Source: Clostridiales bacterium (GTDB lineage: Bacteria; Bacillota; Clostridia; Lachnospirales; Lachnospiraceae). Taken from it: 43,180 nucleotides of DNA. The stretch lies in assembly GCA_012839085.1 (NCBI GenBank), contig DUNZ01000087.1:1-43180 (forward strand), written 5' to 3'. The notes beneath the pieces were generated by a model that ran no database searches, had not been told where the DNA came from, and worked only from the letters and a program-made list of their open reading frames with translations. Made by a program: the position numbers and the translations under genes. This document shows positions 6,390-12,984 of this stretch, in pieces; position 1 is the first letter of the stretch; every line of letters starts with the position of its first letter.

Positions 6390-6441
6390 TCCATCCTCCA
6401 TTTCAAAAGATACATACTTTGTCTTTGGTTTTCTATTCTTA

Positions 6442-6469
6442 ATTATATAGTAGTTATCTCATATGAAAA
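6442..6469 (-). promoter_or_regulatory. Possible promoter for the CotH lipoprotein gene
   Basis: On the minus strand, TATAAT at 6447-6442 lies 53 nt before the preferred start, with a poor -35 (TTTTCA, 16-nt spacer). The call rests mainly on the perfect -10. Confidence 0.35.
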
Positions 6470-6555
6470 ACTATCATTTATGGATATATTTTCATGTAAA
6501 ATTAAGTCATTCTATATAAAAAATAATTTTTTACTTTTCAATACCATTTTTACTG

Positions 6556-6564
6556 TGTTAAAAT
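6556..6564 (+). promoter_or_regulatory. Possible extended -10 promoter for glmM
   Basis: TGTTAAAAT fits the TGN-TATAAT extended -10 pattern; the -35 region (TTTCAA, 17-nt spacer) is weak. The implied leader of about 160 nt is long, so a nearer promoter may have been missed. Confidence 0.3.
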
Positions 6565-6729
6565 GATATACGAGAAAAAGATTGTTAATTATGTATATAC
6601 ATATAAAAATCGTATTTGTTGTGTCAAAATAAGCCAAATATTAATAATTTAAATTATATTGGTATTTGCGATGTGAAAAACGATAATCGTAAGTGCTAAA
6701 CAAGATCATCATGAAAGGACTTTGAGAGA

Positions 6730-8079
6730 ATGGGAAAATATTTTGGTACAGATGGATTTCGTGGGGAGGCCAATGTTAACCTGACGGTAACTCATGCCTA
6801 TAAGGTAGGAAGGTTTTTAGGTCACTACTATGGAAAAGATCATAAAGCAAGAATTGTTATCGGTAAGGATACCAGGAGATCTAGTTATATGTTTGAATAT
6901 TCCTTGGTTGCTGGTTTGACTGCCAGTGGAGCTGATGCATACCTGTTACATGTAACCCCGACCCCCAGTGTTTCCTATGTGGTTCGTAGTGAGGGATTTG
7001 ATTGTGGTATAATGATTTCTGCTAGCCATAATCCTTATTATGATAATGGAATTAAAATAATTAATGGGAATGGACATAAATTAGAGGCGGAAATTGAGAA
7101 TCTCATTGAGGAGTATATTGATTGCGAGGAAGATAACCTACCCTTGGCAAAAAGAGAAGATATTGGTAGAACAGTAGATTACTCCATGGGAAGAAATCGC
7201 TATATCGGATATCTGATATCCTTAGCCACCAGATCATTTAAAGATAAAAGGGTCGGTCTTGATTTGGCTAATGGAGCAGCCAGTAGCGTTGCAAAAGGGG
7301 TATTTGATGCTTTGGGTGCTAAAACTTATGTCATTAACGGCGAACCCAATGGTGTCAATATTAATGATAATTGTGGATCGACTCATATGGAACATCTACA
7401 AAAGTTTGTTGTGGAAAATAATCTGGATGTAGGATTTGCATATGATGGTGACGCAGACAGATGTTTGGCCGTTGATAATAAAGGTAATATTATAGATGGA
7501 GATCACATTTTATACGTATGTGGTGTTTATATGAAGGAAAAAAATGACCTTGCAAATAACACAATTGTTACAACCATTATGTCCAATATGGGCTTATATC
7601 AAGCCTTGGAACGCAAGGGTATCAAATATGAAAAAACCACAGTAGGAGATAAATATGTATATGAAAATATGATGGCCAATGGTCATTCCATTGGTGGTGA
7701 ACAATCAGGCCATATTATTTTCAGTAAGCATGCGACAACCGGGGATGGTATTCTTACATCCTTGAAATTGATGGAAGTTATGCTAGAAAGTAAAGCGAAA
7801 CTTTCCGAATTACACAAAGACCTAATTATCTTTCCACAGTTACTGAAAAATGTTAAAGTAAAAGATAAAAAAGCTGCAAGAAATGATGCTGCTGTTATTG
7901 AGGCTATAGCTAAAGTAGAGAAGGAACTGGGTACGGATGGTAGGGTTCTTGTTCGTGAAAGTGGTACAGAGCCTGTAATAAGGGTTATGGTAGAGGCGAA
8001 GACAGAAGAACTGTGTAAGGCTAAGGTAGATTACATCGTTCAGATATTAAAAAATGAAGGCCATGTGATTATTGATTAA
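6730..8079 (+). CDS. glmM: Phosphoglucosamine mutase
   Basis: The 449-residue length is typical for GlmM, which converts glucosamine-6-phosphate to glucosamine-1-phosphate for UDP-GlcNAc and peptidoglycan synthesis in the cytoplasm. Visible signatures are the N-terminal GKYFGTDGFRGEAN, the phosphoserine active-site loop ISASHNP (Ser99), the metal-binding DGDADRC (about residue 240), the sugar-binding GEQSGH, and the C-terminal phosphate-binding RESGTEPVIRVM. All four alpha-phosphohexomutase regions are intact. The SD is weak (AGGACTTTGAGAG before the ATG). The gene appears isolated, with trigger factor about 300 nt downstream behind its own promoter. Confidence 0.96.
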   Translation: MGKYFGTDGFRGEANVNLTVTHAYKVGRFLGHYYGKDHKARIVIGKDTRRSSYMFEYSLVAGLTASGADAYLLHVTPTPSVSYVVRSEGFDCGIMISASHNPYYDNGIKIINGNGHKLEAEIENLIEEYIDCEEDNLPLAKREDIGRTVDYSMGRNRYIGYLISLATRSFKDKRVGLDLANGAASSVAKGVFDALGAKTYVINGEPNGVNINDNCGSTHMEHLQKFVVENNLDVGFAYDGDADRCLAVDNKGNIIDGDHILYVCGVYMKEKNDLANNTIVTTIMSNMGLYQALERKGIKYEKTTVGDKYVYENMMANGHSIGGEQSGHIIFSKHATTGDGILTSLKLMEVMLESKAKLSELHKDLIIFPQLLKNVKVKDKKAARNDAAVIEAIAKVEKELGTDGRVLVRESGTEPVIRVMVEAKTEELCKAKVDYIVQILKNEGHVIID

Positions 8080-8171
8080 TAAAATTTAGGGAATACTTTA
8101 ATCTGGAATGAAATAGTAATGAATTGTTAGAATCGGCAGAAAAATTAAATATAGTATTTACAGAAATGCTA

Positions 8172-8180
8172 TGTTATAAT
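8172..8180 (+). promoter_or_regulatory. Extended -10 promoter for tig
   Basis: TGTTATAAT is a perfect extended -10; no good -35 is present at 17-18 nt. It predicts a transcript start near 8187 and a leader of about 200 nt before the tig ATG at 8386. Confidence 0.55.
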
Positions 8181-8186
8181 ATACTA

Positions 8187-8385
8187 ATGTCAAAATGTCT
8201 GTAAAAAGCAGAAATTATGTACTTTTTAGAAATGGATGTATAGGATGGAATTAATTGGCTAACAGTAAAGTACATAGAGATAAAGGGAGGAAAATGCCCC
8301 CCAATAGAAATAGGGGAGACAATTCTTCCCCATAAAAACAGGGAGGAAAATTCCCTCCCCCAAAAAAACAGGAGGAAATTACAAT
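8187..8385 (+). promoter_or_regulatory. Structured tig leader with alternating G-rich/C-rich blocks
   Basis: The leader opens with a 9-bp inverted repeat (ATGTACTTT 8217-8225, AAAGTACAT 8267-8275). Then come alternating blocks: GGGAGG (8285-8290), CCCCCC (8297-8302), GGGG (8313-8316), CTTCCCC (8325-8331), GGGAGG (8341-8346), CCCTCCCCC (8353-8361) and the tig SD AGGAGG (8370-8375). Pairing 1-2, 3-4, 5-6 leaves the SD free. Pairing 2-3, 4-5, 6-SD buries it: AATTCCCTCC (8349-8358) against GGAGGAAATT (8371-8380) pairs at 9 of 10 positions. The pairings are seen directly; a regulatory role is inference. Confidence 0.55.
8294..8335 (+). CDS. Possible 13-codon leader peptide upstream of tig
   Basis: ATG at 8294 opens a frame ending at TAA 8333-8335 and encodes MPPNRNRGDNSSP. 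GGGAGG (8285-8290) lies only 3 nt upstream, close but usable as an SD. The frame begins with two consecutive CCC proline codons and ends Ser-Pro-stop, both contexts that can slow ribosomes. It spans hairpins 1 and 2 of the leader. The tig ATG is 50 nt beyond the stop. It could equally be a chance ORF within a structural element. Confidence 0.35.
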   Translation: MPPNRNRGDNSSP

Positions 8386-9684
8386 ATGAGTTTACAAGTT
8401 GAAAAGTTAGAAAAAAACATGGCAAAGCTTACCATAGAGGCTAGTGCTGAGGAATTTGAACAAGCAATTCAAAAAGCTTATCTTAAAAATAGGAATAGGA
8501 TTAATGTTCAGGGATTTCGTAGAGGTAAGGCACCTCTTGCAATTATTGAGAAAATGTATGGTCCTAGTATTTTTTATGAAGATGCTGCCAATGAAATTAT
8601 TCCAGAAGCTTACGAGAAGGCAGCCAATGAAAGTGGTCTAGATATCGTATCCAGACCTGAAATTGATGTAATTCAGATTGAAAAAGGCAAACCTTTTATT
8701 TTTACAGCGGAAGTAGCATTAAAACCGGAGGTAACTTTAGGTCAGTACAAGGGAATCGAAATTGAAAAGAAAGAAGTTACCGTTACGGATGACGAACTAA
8801 TGGCTAAGATCAATGAGGAAAGAGAAAAAAATTCTAGAATGGTTACCATTGATGACAGACCAGTTCAAGATGGTGATATTACCGTAATTGATTTTGAAGG
8901 TTTTGTTGACGGTGTGGCATTTGAAGGAGGAAAAGGTGAAGACTATTCCTTGACAATTGGTTCTCACAGCTTTATTGATACCTTCGAAGAGCAATTAATT
9001 GGTAAATCAATTGGTGAAGAAGTAGAAGTGAATGTGACTTTCCCAGAAGAGTATCATGCTAAGGACTTAGCTGGTAAACCTGCACTATTTAAAGTTACAA
9101 TAAAAGAAATTAAGGTAAAAGAACTTCCAGAGTTGGATGATGATTTTGCACAGGATGTATCTGAATTTGATACTTTAGATGAATACAAGGAAAGTGTTAA
9201 GGCTACAATTAAATCTAATAAGGAAAAAGAAGTAAAAATTGCTAAAGAAAATGAAGTAGTAGATAAAATCATTGAAAATGCCCAAATGGATATTCCAGAG
9301 CCTATGTTAGATTTACAGACAAGACAAATGGCAGATGATTTTGCTCAGAGAATGCAATATCAAGGGCTTTCCATAGAGCAATATTTCCAATTCACTGGTA
9401 TGGATGCTAAGAAGTTCTTAGATAACTTAAGACCTCAAGCTTTAAAACGTATCCAGAGTAGACTAGTATTAGAAGCAGTAGCTAAGGCTGAAAATATCGA
9501 GGTTTCAGAAGAAGAATTGGATAAAGAACTATCCAATATGGCAGAACAGTATAAAATGGAACTGGATAAACTGAAAGAAGTTATTGGAGAAAATGAAAAA
9601 GAGCAGATGAAAGCGGATATTGCTGTACAAAAGGCAGTTGACCTAGTAGTAGAGCAAGCTGTTGAAGTTGAGCCAGCAAAATAA
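8386..9684 (+). CDS. tig: Trigger factor (ribosome-bound chaperone and prolyl isomerase)
   Basis: The 432-residue length is standard. Domains: the ribosome-binding N-terminal region with the signature GFRRGKAP near residue 44 (docks on L23 at the exit tunnel), a central FKBP-type prolyl isomerase domain (about 150-240, DGDITVIDFEGFVDG and FPEEYHAKDLAGKPALFKV), and a helical C-terminal chaperone domain. It folds nascent chains in the cytoplasm. The SD AGGAGG lies 10 nt before the ATG, at the end of an unusual structured leader. clpP and clpX follow, as in many Firmicutes. Confidence 0.97.
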   Translation: MSLQVEKLEKNMAKLTIEASAEEFEQAIQKAYLKNRNRINVQGFRRGKAPLAIIEKMYGPSIFYEDAANEIIPEAYEKAANESGLDIVSRPEIDVIQIEKGKPFIFTAEVALKPEVTLGQYKGIEIEKKEVTVTDDELMAKINEEREKNSRMVTIDDRPVQDGDITVIDFEGFVDGVAFEGGKGEDYSLTIGSHSFIDTFEEQLIGKSIGEEVEVNVTFPEEYHAKDLAGKPALFKVTIKEIKVKELPELDDDFAQDVSEFDTLDEYKESVKATIKSNKEKEVKIAKENEVVDKIIENAQMDIPEPMLDLQTRQMADDFAQRMQYQGLSIEQYFQFTGMDAKKFLDNLRPQALKRIQSRLVLEAVAKAENIEVSEEELDKELSNMAEQYKMELDKLKEVIGENEKEQMKADIAVQKAVDLVVEQAVEVEPAK

Positions 9685-9781
9685 GTTTAGGAGATTTTCC
9701 TAGGAGATATAGGATTATTTAATAATTATGGAATTACCGGCTTTAAGAGAACATTTATTGTTATAAAAAGGAGGGTTTCAT

Positions 9782-10363
9782 ATGAGTTTAGTACCTTATG
9801 TTATTGAACAGACTAGTCGTGGAGAGAGAAGCTACGATATTTATTCTAGATTATTAAAAGAAAGAATCATTTTTCTTGGAGAAGAAGTTAATGATACAAC
9901 AGCAAGCTTAATCGTTGCCCAATTGTTGTTCTTAGAATCAGAAGATCCAGGAAAGGATATCAATTTCTATATTAATAGTCCTGGTGGGTCTGTAACAGCA
10001 GGAATGGCAATCTATGATACGATGAACTACATTAAATGTGATGTATCAACCATTTGTATCGGCCTAGCTGCCAGCATGGGAGCATTCTTATTGGCAGGTG
10101 GTACAAAGGGAAAACGTTTTGCACTTCCTAATTCTGAAATTATGATTCATCAGCCTTCTGGTGGAGCCAGAGGTCAAGCAACGGACATTAAAATTGTTGC
10201 TGATAATATTATAAGAATTAGAAGAAGATTAAATGAAATCTTATCAAAGAATACAGGTAAACCCCTAGAAGTAATCGAAGTAGATACAGAAAGGGACTTT
10301 TATATGAGTGCTGATGAGGCAAAGGATTACGGCATCATCGATGGCATACTGGAAAGAAGATAA
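9782..10363 (+). CDS. clpP: ATP-dependent Clp protease proteolytic subunit
   Basis: The 193-residue serine protease subunit forms the tetradecameric ClpP barrel that degrades substrates fed by ClpX or other Clp ATPases. The catalytic triad is visible: Ser98 in GLAASMGAF, His123 in MIHQPSGG and Asp172 in [11 protein letters not shown]. The glycine-rich SPGGSVTAG loop is also present. A strong SD (AGGAGG, 7 nt) precedes the ATG. The 97-nt gap after tig has no clear terminator, and clpX starts 46 nt after the stop, so tig-clpP-clpX may be at least partly co-transcribed. Confidence 0.97.
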
Positions 10364-10409
10364 TCAAAGGTATGCTTTGCACTACACAGAGAATGAGGTG
10401 AAAGATTTA

Positions 10410-11705
10410 GTGGCAGGAAAAGTTGAAGACAGAAAACAACTTAGATGTTCCTTTTGTAATAAAACACAGGATCAGGTTCGTAAACTAATTGCAGGTCCTG
10501 GAGTATATATATGTGATGAATGCATTGAAATCTGCAGTGAAATCATCGAAGAGGAATTTGAGGGCGATTCTGTTATAGATTCAGACATAAATCTTCTGAA
10601 ACCGGTTGAAATTAAAAATTTCCTGGATCAGCATGTTGTTGGCCAGGATGAAGCAAAGAAAGTATTAGCAGTTTCCGTATACAACCATTATAAGAGAGTA
10701 TTGGCAGATAAAGATTTAGATGTTGAACTTCAAAAGAGCAATATCCTAATGATTGGTCCTACAGGTTCCGGTAAAACTTATCTTGCCCAAACCCTTGCAA
10801 AGCTGTTAAATGTTCCATTTGCAATAGCTGATGCTACAGCATTGACAGAAGCAGGTTATGTCGGTGAGGATGTTGAAAATATCCTATTAAAATTAATCCA
10901 GGCAGCAGATTTTGATATAGAACGTGCGGAATATGGCATAATCTATGTGGATGAAATCGATAAAATCACAAGGAAGTCAGAGAATACCTCCATTACAAGA
11001 GATGTATCTGGAGAAGGAGTACAGCAGGCACTCCTAAAGATTTTGGAGGGTACAGTAGCTTCCGTGCCCCCACAGGGTGGAAGAAAACATCCTCATCAGG
11101 AGTTTATCCAAATTGATACAACGAACATATTATTTATCTGTGGTGGTGCCTTTGATGGACTGGAAAAGATTATTGAATCCAGAATTGGACAGAAATCCAT
11201 TGGATTTAATGCTCAGATTCATGAGAAGAATAAAACCAATGTAGGTGAAATCTTGCGTCAGACCATGCCTCAGGATCTTGTAAAATTCGGAATGATTCCA
11301 GAATTCGTTGGACGTGTTCCGGTTTGCGTAGCTTTGGATATGTTGGATGAAAAAGCATTGGTAAAAATTCTAACGGAACCCAAAAATGCAATTACCAAAC
11401 AGTATAAGAAGCTGTTTGAATTAGATGGTGTAGAATTAGAGTTTGAGCCAGACGCTATAGAAGAAATAGCGAAACAATCTTTTGAACGTAAGATTGGAGC
11501 TAGAGGACTACGAGCGATTATGGAAGCAGTAATGATGGATTCTATGTATACGATTCCTTCGGACACTAAAGCTGTAAAATGCATCATCACAAAGAATGCA
11601 GTATTAGGCGAAGAAAAACCTCAAATAATATTCTCAGATGAAAATGTTACTAGAAAGCCAATTGTAAAACGTTCATCAAAAAAAAGCAAAGGTGAAATCG
11701 CTTAG
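10410..11705 (+). CDS. clpX: Clp protease ATP-binding subunit ClpX
   Basis: An AAA+ unfoldase that recognises substrates and feeds ClpP. The start is a GTG at 10410 ([10 protein letters not shown]), with GAGGTG 9 nt upstream. The frame stays open further 5', but that stretch lies inside clpP and lacks an SD. This gives 431 residues, near the family norm. Features: C4 zinc-binding domain (Cys13, 16, 35, 38), Walker A GPTGSGKT, Walker B IIYVDEID, the RKH pore loop in GRKHPHQEF, and the ClpP-docking loop with IGF (KSIGFN). All key residues are intact. In relatives lon usually follows clpX; here it does not. Confidence 0.97.
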
Positions 11706-11723
11706 GACATTTCATAGTAATAC

Positions 11724-11785
11724 AAGCTTCTAGTGATCGATTGGATCGCTGGTAAGTCCAGAAGATTAGATAAGGAAAGAAGCTT
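11724..11785 (+). promoter_or_regulatory. Possible antiterminator helix between clpX and engB
   Basis: AAGCTTCT (11724-11731) is perfectly complementary to AGAAGCTT (11778-11785). The latter overlaps the 5' arm of the downstream terminator, so the two helices are mutually exclusive. Between them AGTGATC/GATCGCT forms a 7-bp hairpin with one G-U pair. No T-box signature was seen. Confidence 0.35.
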
Positions 11786-11820
11786 TCCGTTAGAATGTTT
11801 ATTCTGATGGAAAGCTTTTT
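11780..11820 (+). terminator. Strong terminator between clpX and engB
   Basis: AAGCTTTCC-G-TTAGAAT (11780-11796) pairs with ATTCTGA-T-GGAAAGCTT, about 17 bp with G-U pairs and a 4-nt loop, followed by a T run. It separates clpX from engB or attenuates read-through. Confidence 0.88.
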
Positions 11821-11874
11821 AAACGATAGAAGTAAATCATCTTAAATAAAACACAAAAATCAGGAGGGGAAACC

Positions 11875-12462
11875 ATGATTATTAAACATGTAGAATTGGA
11901 GACAGTTTGTGGAATTACCAGTGTATTGCCGGTAAATGACAAGCCAGAGATTGCATTTGCAGGAAAGTCCAATGTGGGTAAATCCTCACTGATCAATGCT
12001 TTAATGAATCGAAAATCCTTGGCTCGTACATCATCCCAACCGGGTAAAACCCAGACAATTAATTTCTATAATATTAATGACCTACTATATTTTGTTGACT
12101 TGCCAGGTTACGGTTATGCGAAAGTATCGATATCGATCAAGGAAAAATGGGGAAAGATGATAGAAAAATATTTGAAAACATCAAAACAGTTAAAAGCTGT
12201 TTTCCTCTTGGTGGATATCCGGCATAAACCATCTGAAAATGACAAAAATATGTATGATTGGATTGTCTACCATGGATTCCAACCAATCATTATAGCTACC
12301 AAATTGGATAAAATTAAACGAAGTCAAAAGGACAAGCATATAAAAATGATTCGGGATGAATTGAATGTAGTACCGGGCACAAAAATATTCCCATTTTCCG
12401 CCACAACCAAGCAGGGTAGGGATGAAATATGGGAATCTATTGTGGAAATATGTGATTTATAA
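11875..12462 (+). CDS. engB: Ribosome biogenesis GTP-binding protein EngB/YsxC
   Basis: This 195-residue GTPase assists late 50S subunit assembly. Motifs: G1 AGKSNVGKSS (residues 29-38), G2 region with TSSQPGKTQTINF, G3 VDLPGYGYAKV, G4 ATKLDK, and a G5-like FSATTKQG. It is a single-domain TrmE-Era-EngA-EngB protein of normal length. The SD GGAGGGGAAACC precedes the ATG. The stop TAA forms the second half of a TTATAA palindrome that is also the end of the convergent DUF4364 gene, so the two genes overlap by 6 bp. Confidence 0.96.
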   Translation: MIIKHVELETVCGITSVLPVNDKPEIAFAGKSNVGKSSLINALMNRKSLARTSSQPGKTQTINFYNINDLLYFVDLPGYGYAKVSISIKEKWGKMIEKYLKTSKQLKAVFLLVDIRHKPSENDKNMYDWIVYHGFQPIIIATKLDKIKRSQKDKHIKMIRDELNVVPGTKIFPFSATTKQGRDEIWESIVEICDL

Positions 12463-12984
12463 TTTGTCATCCAGTAAGGATGCCATTAAATAAGAATAAA
12501 TATCAGAGCTTTTTTCCTTCCAATTGTTACACATTAGGGAGGCTTCGTCCTCAGTAGGTACAATGAGATTGAGTTCAATAATAGGGGTATCTTGTTCAAT
12601 TACTTTCATATGAACAGAGTATTCCCCTTTTTTTATTTGGAAGTACTGAGCCGGGGTAGAAACTTCTTGCTGCAAGTCGTATTTATTTTCCTGTAAATAC
12701 AAGTCGATATCCTCTTTTATACCTGCCGATATCATATTATCAAAAAATAGCAAGGTCTCTTTTCCGCTTTCTGTTATTCGATATAAAGAACTATTGCGAA
12801 TGGTTTTTACAGCAATGAAGGAATCATCAATAAGTTCCGATATTGCCTGTTGTATATTGAAATAATTTGTATATTCCTTCTCCAAGATAAATGAAGTTAA
12901 TTGAGCATTGGTCAAGGGAAACTTGACCTTATTTAACATATATAAAATCATTAACTTATATAACATGAAGGTATCGGACTGCAT
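12457..12984 (-). CDS. DUF4364 family winged-helix protein
   Basis: This 175-residue protein matches my recollection of DUF4364, common in Clostridia. The N-terminal ~75 residues look like a winged-helix domain (LMILYMLNKVKFPLTNAQLTSF, then IQQAISELIDDSFI and a wing YRITESGKETL), similar to PadR-like regulators. The C-terminal half is a beta-rich domain of unknown function. A DNA-binding regulatory role is inference. SD AAGGAGG is 6 nt before the ATG. It is the last gene of a minus-strand cluster after malic enzyme and the radical SAM gene, with a 51-nt gap. The end overlaps engB tail to tail. Confidence 0.82.
   Translation of the reverse strand: MQSDTFMLYKLMILYMLNKVKFPLTNAQLTSFILEKEYTNYFNIQQAISELIDDSFIAVKTIRNSSLYRITESGKETLLFFDNMISAGIKEDIDLYLQENKYDLQQEVSTPAQYFQIKKGEYSVHMKVIEQDTPIIELNLIVPTEDEASLMCNNWKEKSSDIYSYLMASLLDDKL

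Follow-up and report, generated by a model that had tools for sequence, protein, structure and literature searches.

Does the trigger factor gene of this Lachnospiraceae bacterium possess an RNA switch of its own? In the window, i.e. the whole stretch of 43,180 nucleotides analysed here, tig (8386-9684, plus strand; E 6.6e-79 for its first 230 residues against NCBIfam TIGR00115) lies downstream of a glmM-like gene and is followed by clpP-, clpX- and ysxC-like genes, these names being read off the translations. According to the original prediction, seven alternating purine-rich and pyrimidine-rich blocks run up to the tig Shine-Dalgarno (SD) sequence and can pair in two registers, one of which buries the SD; this was taken to suggest translational control of tig, with temperature, ribosome position or a bound protein as possible triggers.

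Anatomy and folding of the tig leader

The seven blocks are indeed present on the plus strand, to which all features of the leader given here belong: block 1 (AGGGAGGAAA, 8284-8293), block 2 (TGCCCCCC, 8295-8302), block 3 (AGGGGAGA, 8312-8319), block 4 (AATTCTTCCCC, 8321-8331), block 5 (AGGGAGGAAA, 8340-8349), block 6 (ATTCCCTCCCCC, 8350-8361) and block 7, the tig SD itself (GGAGGAAATT, 8371-8380). As the alternation stems from tandem units running into the SD, the blocks are not independent coincidences. The array is composed of three imperfect 28-nt tandem units (8284-8380) located directly upstream of the SD and extending into it. Every unit combines a GGAGG-like arm (a) with a CCTCC-like arm (b) into a hairpin: unit 1 (8284-8302) consists of a1 AGGGAGG (8284-8290), a loop and b1 CCCCCC (8297-8302), unit 2 (8312-8331) of a2 AGGGGAG (8312-8318) and b2 TTCTTCCCC (8323-8331), and unit 3 (8340-8361) of a3 AGGGAGG (8340-8346), a loop and b3 CCCTCCCCC (8353-8361). 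All three were recognised as direct repeats (D1) with a spacing of 28 and 28 nt, the 41-nt copies being 71 and 73% identical to the first, and the hairpin of unit 3 (8341-8346/8354-8359) is also present in the minimum free energy (MFE) structure. The SD core GGAGG (8371-8375) is flanked by AAATT. Pairing of AATTCCCTCC (8349-8358) with the SD GGAGGAAATT holds at nine of ten positions, as predicted, with a sole C x A mismatch at 8353/8376. This candidate SD-closing helix (8349-8380) is backed by covariation at the level of the array family, as described below.

Upstream of the array, a likely promoter TTTACA-17-TATACT (8157-8185) agrees with the consensus at 10 of 12 positions in a scan, such matches being no commoner near tig than in shuffled sequence. 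Of 30 tig leaders from the genus, 22 contain a stretch resembling TATAATATACTA. Between promoter and array lies an older stem, a perfect 10-bp inverted repeat (TATGTACTTT / AAAGTACATA, 8216-8276), which a simple test for GTAC arms recovered in 14 of 30 tig leaders, arrays being present or absent, and of which variants were seen by eye in others. In many array-less tig leaders of the genus, the SD immediately follows the older stem TGTACTTT...AAAGTACA. The region 8192-8276 as a whole comprises a short hairpin downstream of the promoter (TGTCTGC..GCAGACA in some relatives) and a long stem ATGTACTTTT...AAAAGTACAT; the tig leader of genome G005 carries the stem variant TTTACATTTT...AAAATGTAAA, a coordinated change. 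This older structure matched no Rfam family at the gathering score. An Rfam search of window and leader likewise gave no match at the curated gathering score and sub-threshold matches only (lowest E 0.13), and a tRNA scan of the window found none.

Folding of 8281-8400 resulted in an MFE of −29.5 kcal/mol (z −1.90; 9/200 shuffles equally good) and folding of 8187-8420 in an MFE of −46.8 kcal/mol (z −2.17; 3/200 shuffles equally good), i.e. the fold of the tig leader beats shuffled sequences only moderately. In the dominant predicted fold, blocks 1-4 are paired with 2-3 nested inside, accompanied by the hairpin 5-6. This corresponds to neither of the two registers: hairpin 5-6 and a partial pairing of block 6 with the SD are recovered, whereas the remaining register pairs are minor in the ensemble. 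The tig SD is unpaired in the MFE structure of 8281-8400, and its first two G residues pair with 8360-8361 in that of 8187-8420. In the ensemble at 37°C, the SD core is fully open with a probability of 0.09-0.16, as block 6 pairs part of it; varying with the stretch folded, SD opening spans 0.09-0.18.

Distribution of the arrays

A regulator specific for tig was dropped as a candidate, since the window's genome carries a second array between a recF-like gene and gyrB (AGGAGGAGTAGTCCTTCT, AGGAGGAGAAGAGATCCTCCT and AGGAGGAGAAATCCTCCT, then the SD AGGAGGATT) and further arrays occur in sister species. The genus is of the Herbinix/Mobilitalea type within the Lachnospiraceae and includes MAGs named Herbinix. 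Genome G004, likewise a member, has the same tig leader as Mobilitalea sibirica DSM 26468 (loci L005 and L033), a strain with several copies of the element. The blocks before tig are conserved in relatives in that at least one hairpin unit was seen by eye in 11 of the 34 genomes of the genus (G000, the window's own, and G003, G005, G023, G025, G026, G029, G030, G031, G032 and G033).

A search pattern of GGAGG, loop, CCTCC, linker, GGAGG, spacer and an ATG that opens a frame of 60 codons or more, run over the collected loci, yielded 123 arrays, 120 of them in the genus, and 88 gene families of mixed function, contrary to a dedication to tig; a few of these arrays may be chance matches, and 68 of the 120 come from loci chosen by eye off pattern lists. 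The arrays consist of one to eight units, with a single unit in 47/120. They precede, among others, gyrB and, in sister species, carB, ilvC, leuB, recA, minD, flhA, radC, gatB, potD-like and cheW-like genes, lepA, gyrA, murF, glmS, acpP, pyrF, proA and others (30 of the 88 families were compared with NCBIfam by at most 230 first residues, most scores lying under the whole-protein cut-off). These genes form no coherent regulon, and no ligand domain was recognised in the array; both points count against the attenuator proposed below.

Inspection by eye revealed arrays in 14/30 gyrB leaders and 13/30 ilvC leaders. Where the upstream end is visible (e.g. in G022, G029 and G005), the ilvC array follows the end of an ilvN-like gene. 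The window's genome has an ilvC without array, the SD of which (GAGGAGGATTAA; G000:C75, L455) overlaps the end of the ilvN-like frame, unlike several relatives with several units before ilvC. The MAG G026 contains two gyrB copies (C100, L279, and C229, L475), one with an array and the other nearly without, possibly reflecting a mixed assembly. In a tree of Tig and GyrB from 26 genomes (midpoint root), all 12 genomes labelled by eye as having a gyrB array fall into one group of 14, which makes vertical inheritance with losses likely; single arrays occur outside this group too, e.g. in G008, G010, G014 and G015. In 59 of 119 arrays, the first unit is preceded, at a median distance of 19 nt, by the end of an open frame of 35 codons or more, some of these possibly being chance frames.

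Outside the genus, a strict version of the pattern gave scattered matches in 7/395 other genomes of the family and 18/397 of the phylum (8/397 and 19/398 including the window's own). Its yield within the genus is 33 out of 120 arrays, so that isolated arrays elsewhere may have escaped it. Matches in other genera were judged by the matched strings, L266 alone being read, and none of the unread ones looked array-like. G222, a genome from a different genus of the family with several matches, yielded a candidate array that proved on reading to lie inside a coding repeat and was rejected. One narrow pattern had no matches in viral contigs, and spread by viruses was dropped.

In G003, 400 kb sampled as 20 even pieces and comprising 237 starts included two starts with two or three purine-armed hairpins, neither of which resembled a tandem array, and the element is therefore sparse in this genome. 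Counts of an a-b-a pattern climb with genome size (rho 0.74, 34 genomes); the backward-pattern control for these counts is not independent, as arrays match the backward pattern too. In the largest genome, G023 (6.4 Mb; loci L365-L405), pattern matches are most numerous and two flank types prevail (AAT with ATT, AAG with CTT), as if two founder elements had spread. In G012, many alternating units of two kinds form a higher-order repeat before flhA. This array reaches contig ends on both sides (end of L425, start of L437), suggesting that short-read assemblies may break at arrays, whose number would then be underestimated.

REP and ERIC sequences and MITEs are dispersed intergenic palindromic units with many copies per genome and a patchy occurrence among species. 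The arrays share with them the palindromic units, the multiple copies per genome and the patchiness between species, but they are sense-oriented against SDs, often tandem, and the SD itself is matched to the repeat. In 20 further loci read, which were chosen from a list and include the two ends of one array, 19 cases lie on the sense strand at gene starts, and the varied intergenic sites in both orientations that characterise a mobile or dispersed repeat were not found.

Complementarity between the last hairpin and the SD flank

The five core pairs between the last CCTCC and the SD are fixed by the search pattern and thus uninformative, so that only flank pairs were considered, namely between the bases before the last CCTCC (x) and those after the SD core (y), with the bases after the GGAGG of the last unit (w) as competitor. 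Across the 120 arrays, x and y pair at positions 1-3 in 88, 86 and 78% of cases compared to 54, 59 and 68% after shuffling. At position 4 the values are 15% and 17%, i.e. the match stops sharply after position 3. The mean flank run between b and SD is 2.36 versus 1.15 in shuffles (0/5000 as high), and all three flank positions are matched in 77/120 arrays. Full matches also exceeded shuffles when one array per gene family was used (56/88; shuffle mean 21.7 and maximum 34 in 2000 shuffles), among loci not picked by eye (29/52 versus 12.0; 0/5000 shuffles) and in genome G032 alone (9/17 versus 1.8). Two flank types, ATT and CTT, account for 63 of the 77 full matches, and founder effects therefore inflate the counts. 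After removal of both types, 9/35 full matches compare with 1.6 in shuffles (0/2000 as high), position 3 alone being no longer significant (329/2000).

Two gap-free alignments, comprising 23 and 26 of the 120 arrays with linkers of 8 and 10 nt, respectively, have 97.3% and 95.2% of their cells paired, and both paired and two-sided cells lie above every shuffle. Their covariation scores are 0.229 and 0.169 versus 0.060 and 0.042 in shuffles (0/500 each), every slid partner scores lower, and two-sided changes occur at all three variable pairs in both alignments. Two weaker measures were not clearly above shuffles, namely the number of pairs with a two-sided change (36 and 150 of 500 shuffles) and that of pair types (95 and 9 of 500).

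Is this complementarity specific for the SD? Where w and y differ, x pairs with y rather than w in ratios of 23:3, 94:3 and 92:5 at positions 1-3. Because w2 and w3 belong to the local loop, internal repeats paired in the shifted register provide the fairer reference. Here, the flank run between an internal b arm and the following a arm is 0.74 (156 pairs) versus 2.37 between the last b arm and the SD (119 pairs), and internal b arms reach 1.99 against the SD. This flank complementarity to the b arms is hence a property of the SD and not of the internal a arms. For an internal b arm, the a arm of its own unit and that of the following unit are about equally good partners (11:14, 16:15 and 9:9 at flank positions 1-3), which lends no support to internal blocks designed for a register shift. 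When pairing was extended at the opposite end of the helix, before the SD and after CCTCC, the SD was not clearly preferred (18:11 at position 1, with the local partner favoured further out).

The SD flanks themselves are unusual, ATT following the core in 52/120 array genes versus 7/104 ordinary starts of one genome (G003). Moreover, orthologues carry different b/SD flank pairs: AAT/ATT (several) and ATT/AAT (G022) before gyrB, AAT/ATT and TAG/CTA before SulP genes, and AAT/ATT and CTT/AAG before nudix genes. Based on the extension found only towards the SD, the unusual SD flanks and the differing matched pairs in orthologues, we take the SD-closing helix to be selected.

A putative translation attenuator and its alternatives

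On balance, we give somewhat better than an even chance to the array acting as a repeated translation attenuator with two states: b pairs either with a, leaving the SD open, or with the SD, which is then closed. As the leader is transcribed, the two arms of every unit would pair locally and the SD would emerge free (ON). The SD and the three nucleotides downstream of it, by their complementarity to b and the 3′ part of the loop of its hairpin, could use the loop bases as a toehold for invasion, so that a is displaced and an 8-bp helix results (OFF). A 30S subunit capturing the SD first would hold it open. The ON and OFF states are expected to differ by a few kcal/mol, and base changes, perhaps also the repeat number, may tune the balance between them. 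Ribosome supply and transcription-translation coupling would be signals compatible with the unrelated nature of the genes. Judged from the sequences, the array probably adjusts protein output.

The predicted energies of the two states are nearly equal, E(b:SD) minus E(a:b) having a median of −1.7 kcal/mol (10th-90th percentile −4.7 to +1.3). The a:b core of the last unit, complementary by pattern in the 119 parsed arrays, is the predicted alternative that frees the SD. A covarying arm complementary to the SD, the hallmark of an SD-sequestering switch, exists in the array family and is imperfect in the window's tig. Burial of the SD by the shifted pairing gains support from the covariation over 120 arrays, whereas in tig itself the local hairpin a:b is favoured over pairing of block 6 with the SD by a predicted 3.3 kcal/mol. 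With this preference and the C x A mismatch, tig is the array gene that fits the attenuator least. Only one of the three strict tig arrays has a full flank match, and several tig arrays have none or a partial one.

Hiding of the SD is known leader by leader, usually tied to a ligand, temperature or a peptide. In RNA thermometers such as ROSE and fourU, the SD sits in a meltable helix. The arrays would resemble them in this respect, and their predicted opening rises with temperature as expected of any hairpin, the median over 120 arrays being 0.0006 at 25°C, 0.003 at 37°C and 0.05 at 60°C, temperatures that are not matched to growth. They differ by the lack of an Rfam match at the gathering score and by the competing local hairpin, for which we know of no counterpart in ROSE or fourU designs. 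The median opening of 0.003 in arrays compares with 0.017 after shuffling of the upstream sequence and 0.016 at G003 control starts, a set that may include false ones; given this weak contrast, equilibrium opening was dropped as proof. Nor does predicted opening decrease as units are added, which speaks against the attenuator.

A rather unlikely alternative is that the arrays are mostly neutral minisatellites, hairpin-prone repeats that expand at SDs by slippage and template switching, are tolerated as the hairpins close on themselves, and retain SD complementarity as a leftover of the element's origin. Consistent with this, repeats and linkers look homogenised by eye within arrays and different between arrays, up to eight units occur, a-b-a matches scale with genome size, gene functions are mixed, and predicted opening is independent of the number of units. 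However, palindrome correction should extend the pairing of b arms with the following a arms, which have similar linkers, as well, whereas only the pairing with the SD is extended (0.74 versus 2.37). The sharp end of the match after position 3, SD flanks unlike those of ordinary starts and the different matched pairs in orthologues also argue against neutrality.

Two further readings concern movement along the array. It is doubtful that the tandem SD/anti-SD units allow a single free SD-like arm to migrate by branch migration, with the repeat number, which seems to vary readily, and ribosomes on the upstream gene setting how often the true SD is free. If this were true, the arrays would be a genus-wide class of translation-control elements, serving as an evolvable, ligand-free tuning and relay device at tens of genes per genome. 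A serial relay, in which occupation or melting of the first unit, e.g. by a ribosome reaching the end of the upstream gene, shifts one unit after the other until the SD closes, appears improbable. The indifference of internal b arms between local and next a arms would suit such a relay, as would the upstream frames that end near the first unit, including the ilvN-like end before some ilvC arrays. Yet no covariation favours the internal shifted pairs, and the 47 arrays with a single unit need no relay.

We consider it very unlikely that the units are sites for a genus-specific RNA-binding protein or hairpins protecting the mRNA from decay, with the SD as a mere neighbour. The occurrence of many similar hairpins with A-rich loops within one genus would be in accordance with such a role, but the loops vary (AGAAAT, CCAAAG, TGAAAT, ATAATT, CAATG and others) while SD complementarity is kept.

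In erm-type attenuators, upstream hairpins swap partners and thereby free or hide the start region. A comparable partner change is proposed here, and the tig leader contains a possible 13-codon upstream ORF (MPPNRNRGDNSSP, 8294-8335) downstream of the SD-like arm a1, with an SD-like GGGAGG, an ATG at 8294 and a stop at 8333-8335. It covers blocks 2-4, and its translation might open or close the hairpins. Control by such a leader peptide is highly improbable even for tig, given that an ATG 3-9 nt after an upstream GGAGG is found in 7/120 arrays and is therefore not shared; as a general mechanism, a leader peptide was dropped for the same reason, in contrast to erm-type translational attenuators (PMC11264731, in excerpts). 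Termination of antisense transcription can practically be dismissed: the minus strand presents the units as G+C hairpins with T runs behind them, and 11 of 11 terminator-like sites in 6400-12500 (3.7 expected) lie on that strand, nine of them within the array, but this leaves both the SD-flank covariation and the constant place before SDs unexplained.

The two-state attenuator favoured here resembles the strand-exchange platforms of translational riboswitches, in which, according to excerpts of PMC10907184, two exclusive helices compete and a single-stranded toehold starts the exchange. As far as these excerpts go, the arrays differ in being tandem, in preceding many unrelated genes and in having no recognised aptamer, as judged from the absence of an Rfam match at the gathering score.

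SD hiding as such is thus of a known kind. To our knowledge, a genus-wide tandem array matched to SDs is a new variant, and no description of such arrays was found in open-licence PubMed Central papers. A simple element with no visible sensor precedes many core genes of one genus, and the SD flank is matched to it. If the attenuator reading is true, nature would provide matched variants, with one to eight units and several flank pairs, for measuring folding, and ribosome competition and the evolution of expression levels would also become directly measurable on these arrays.
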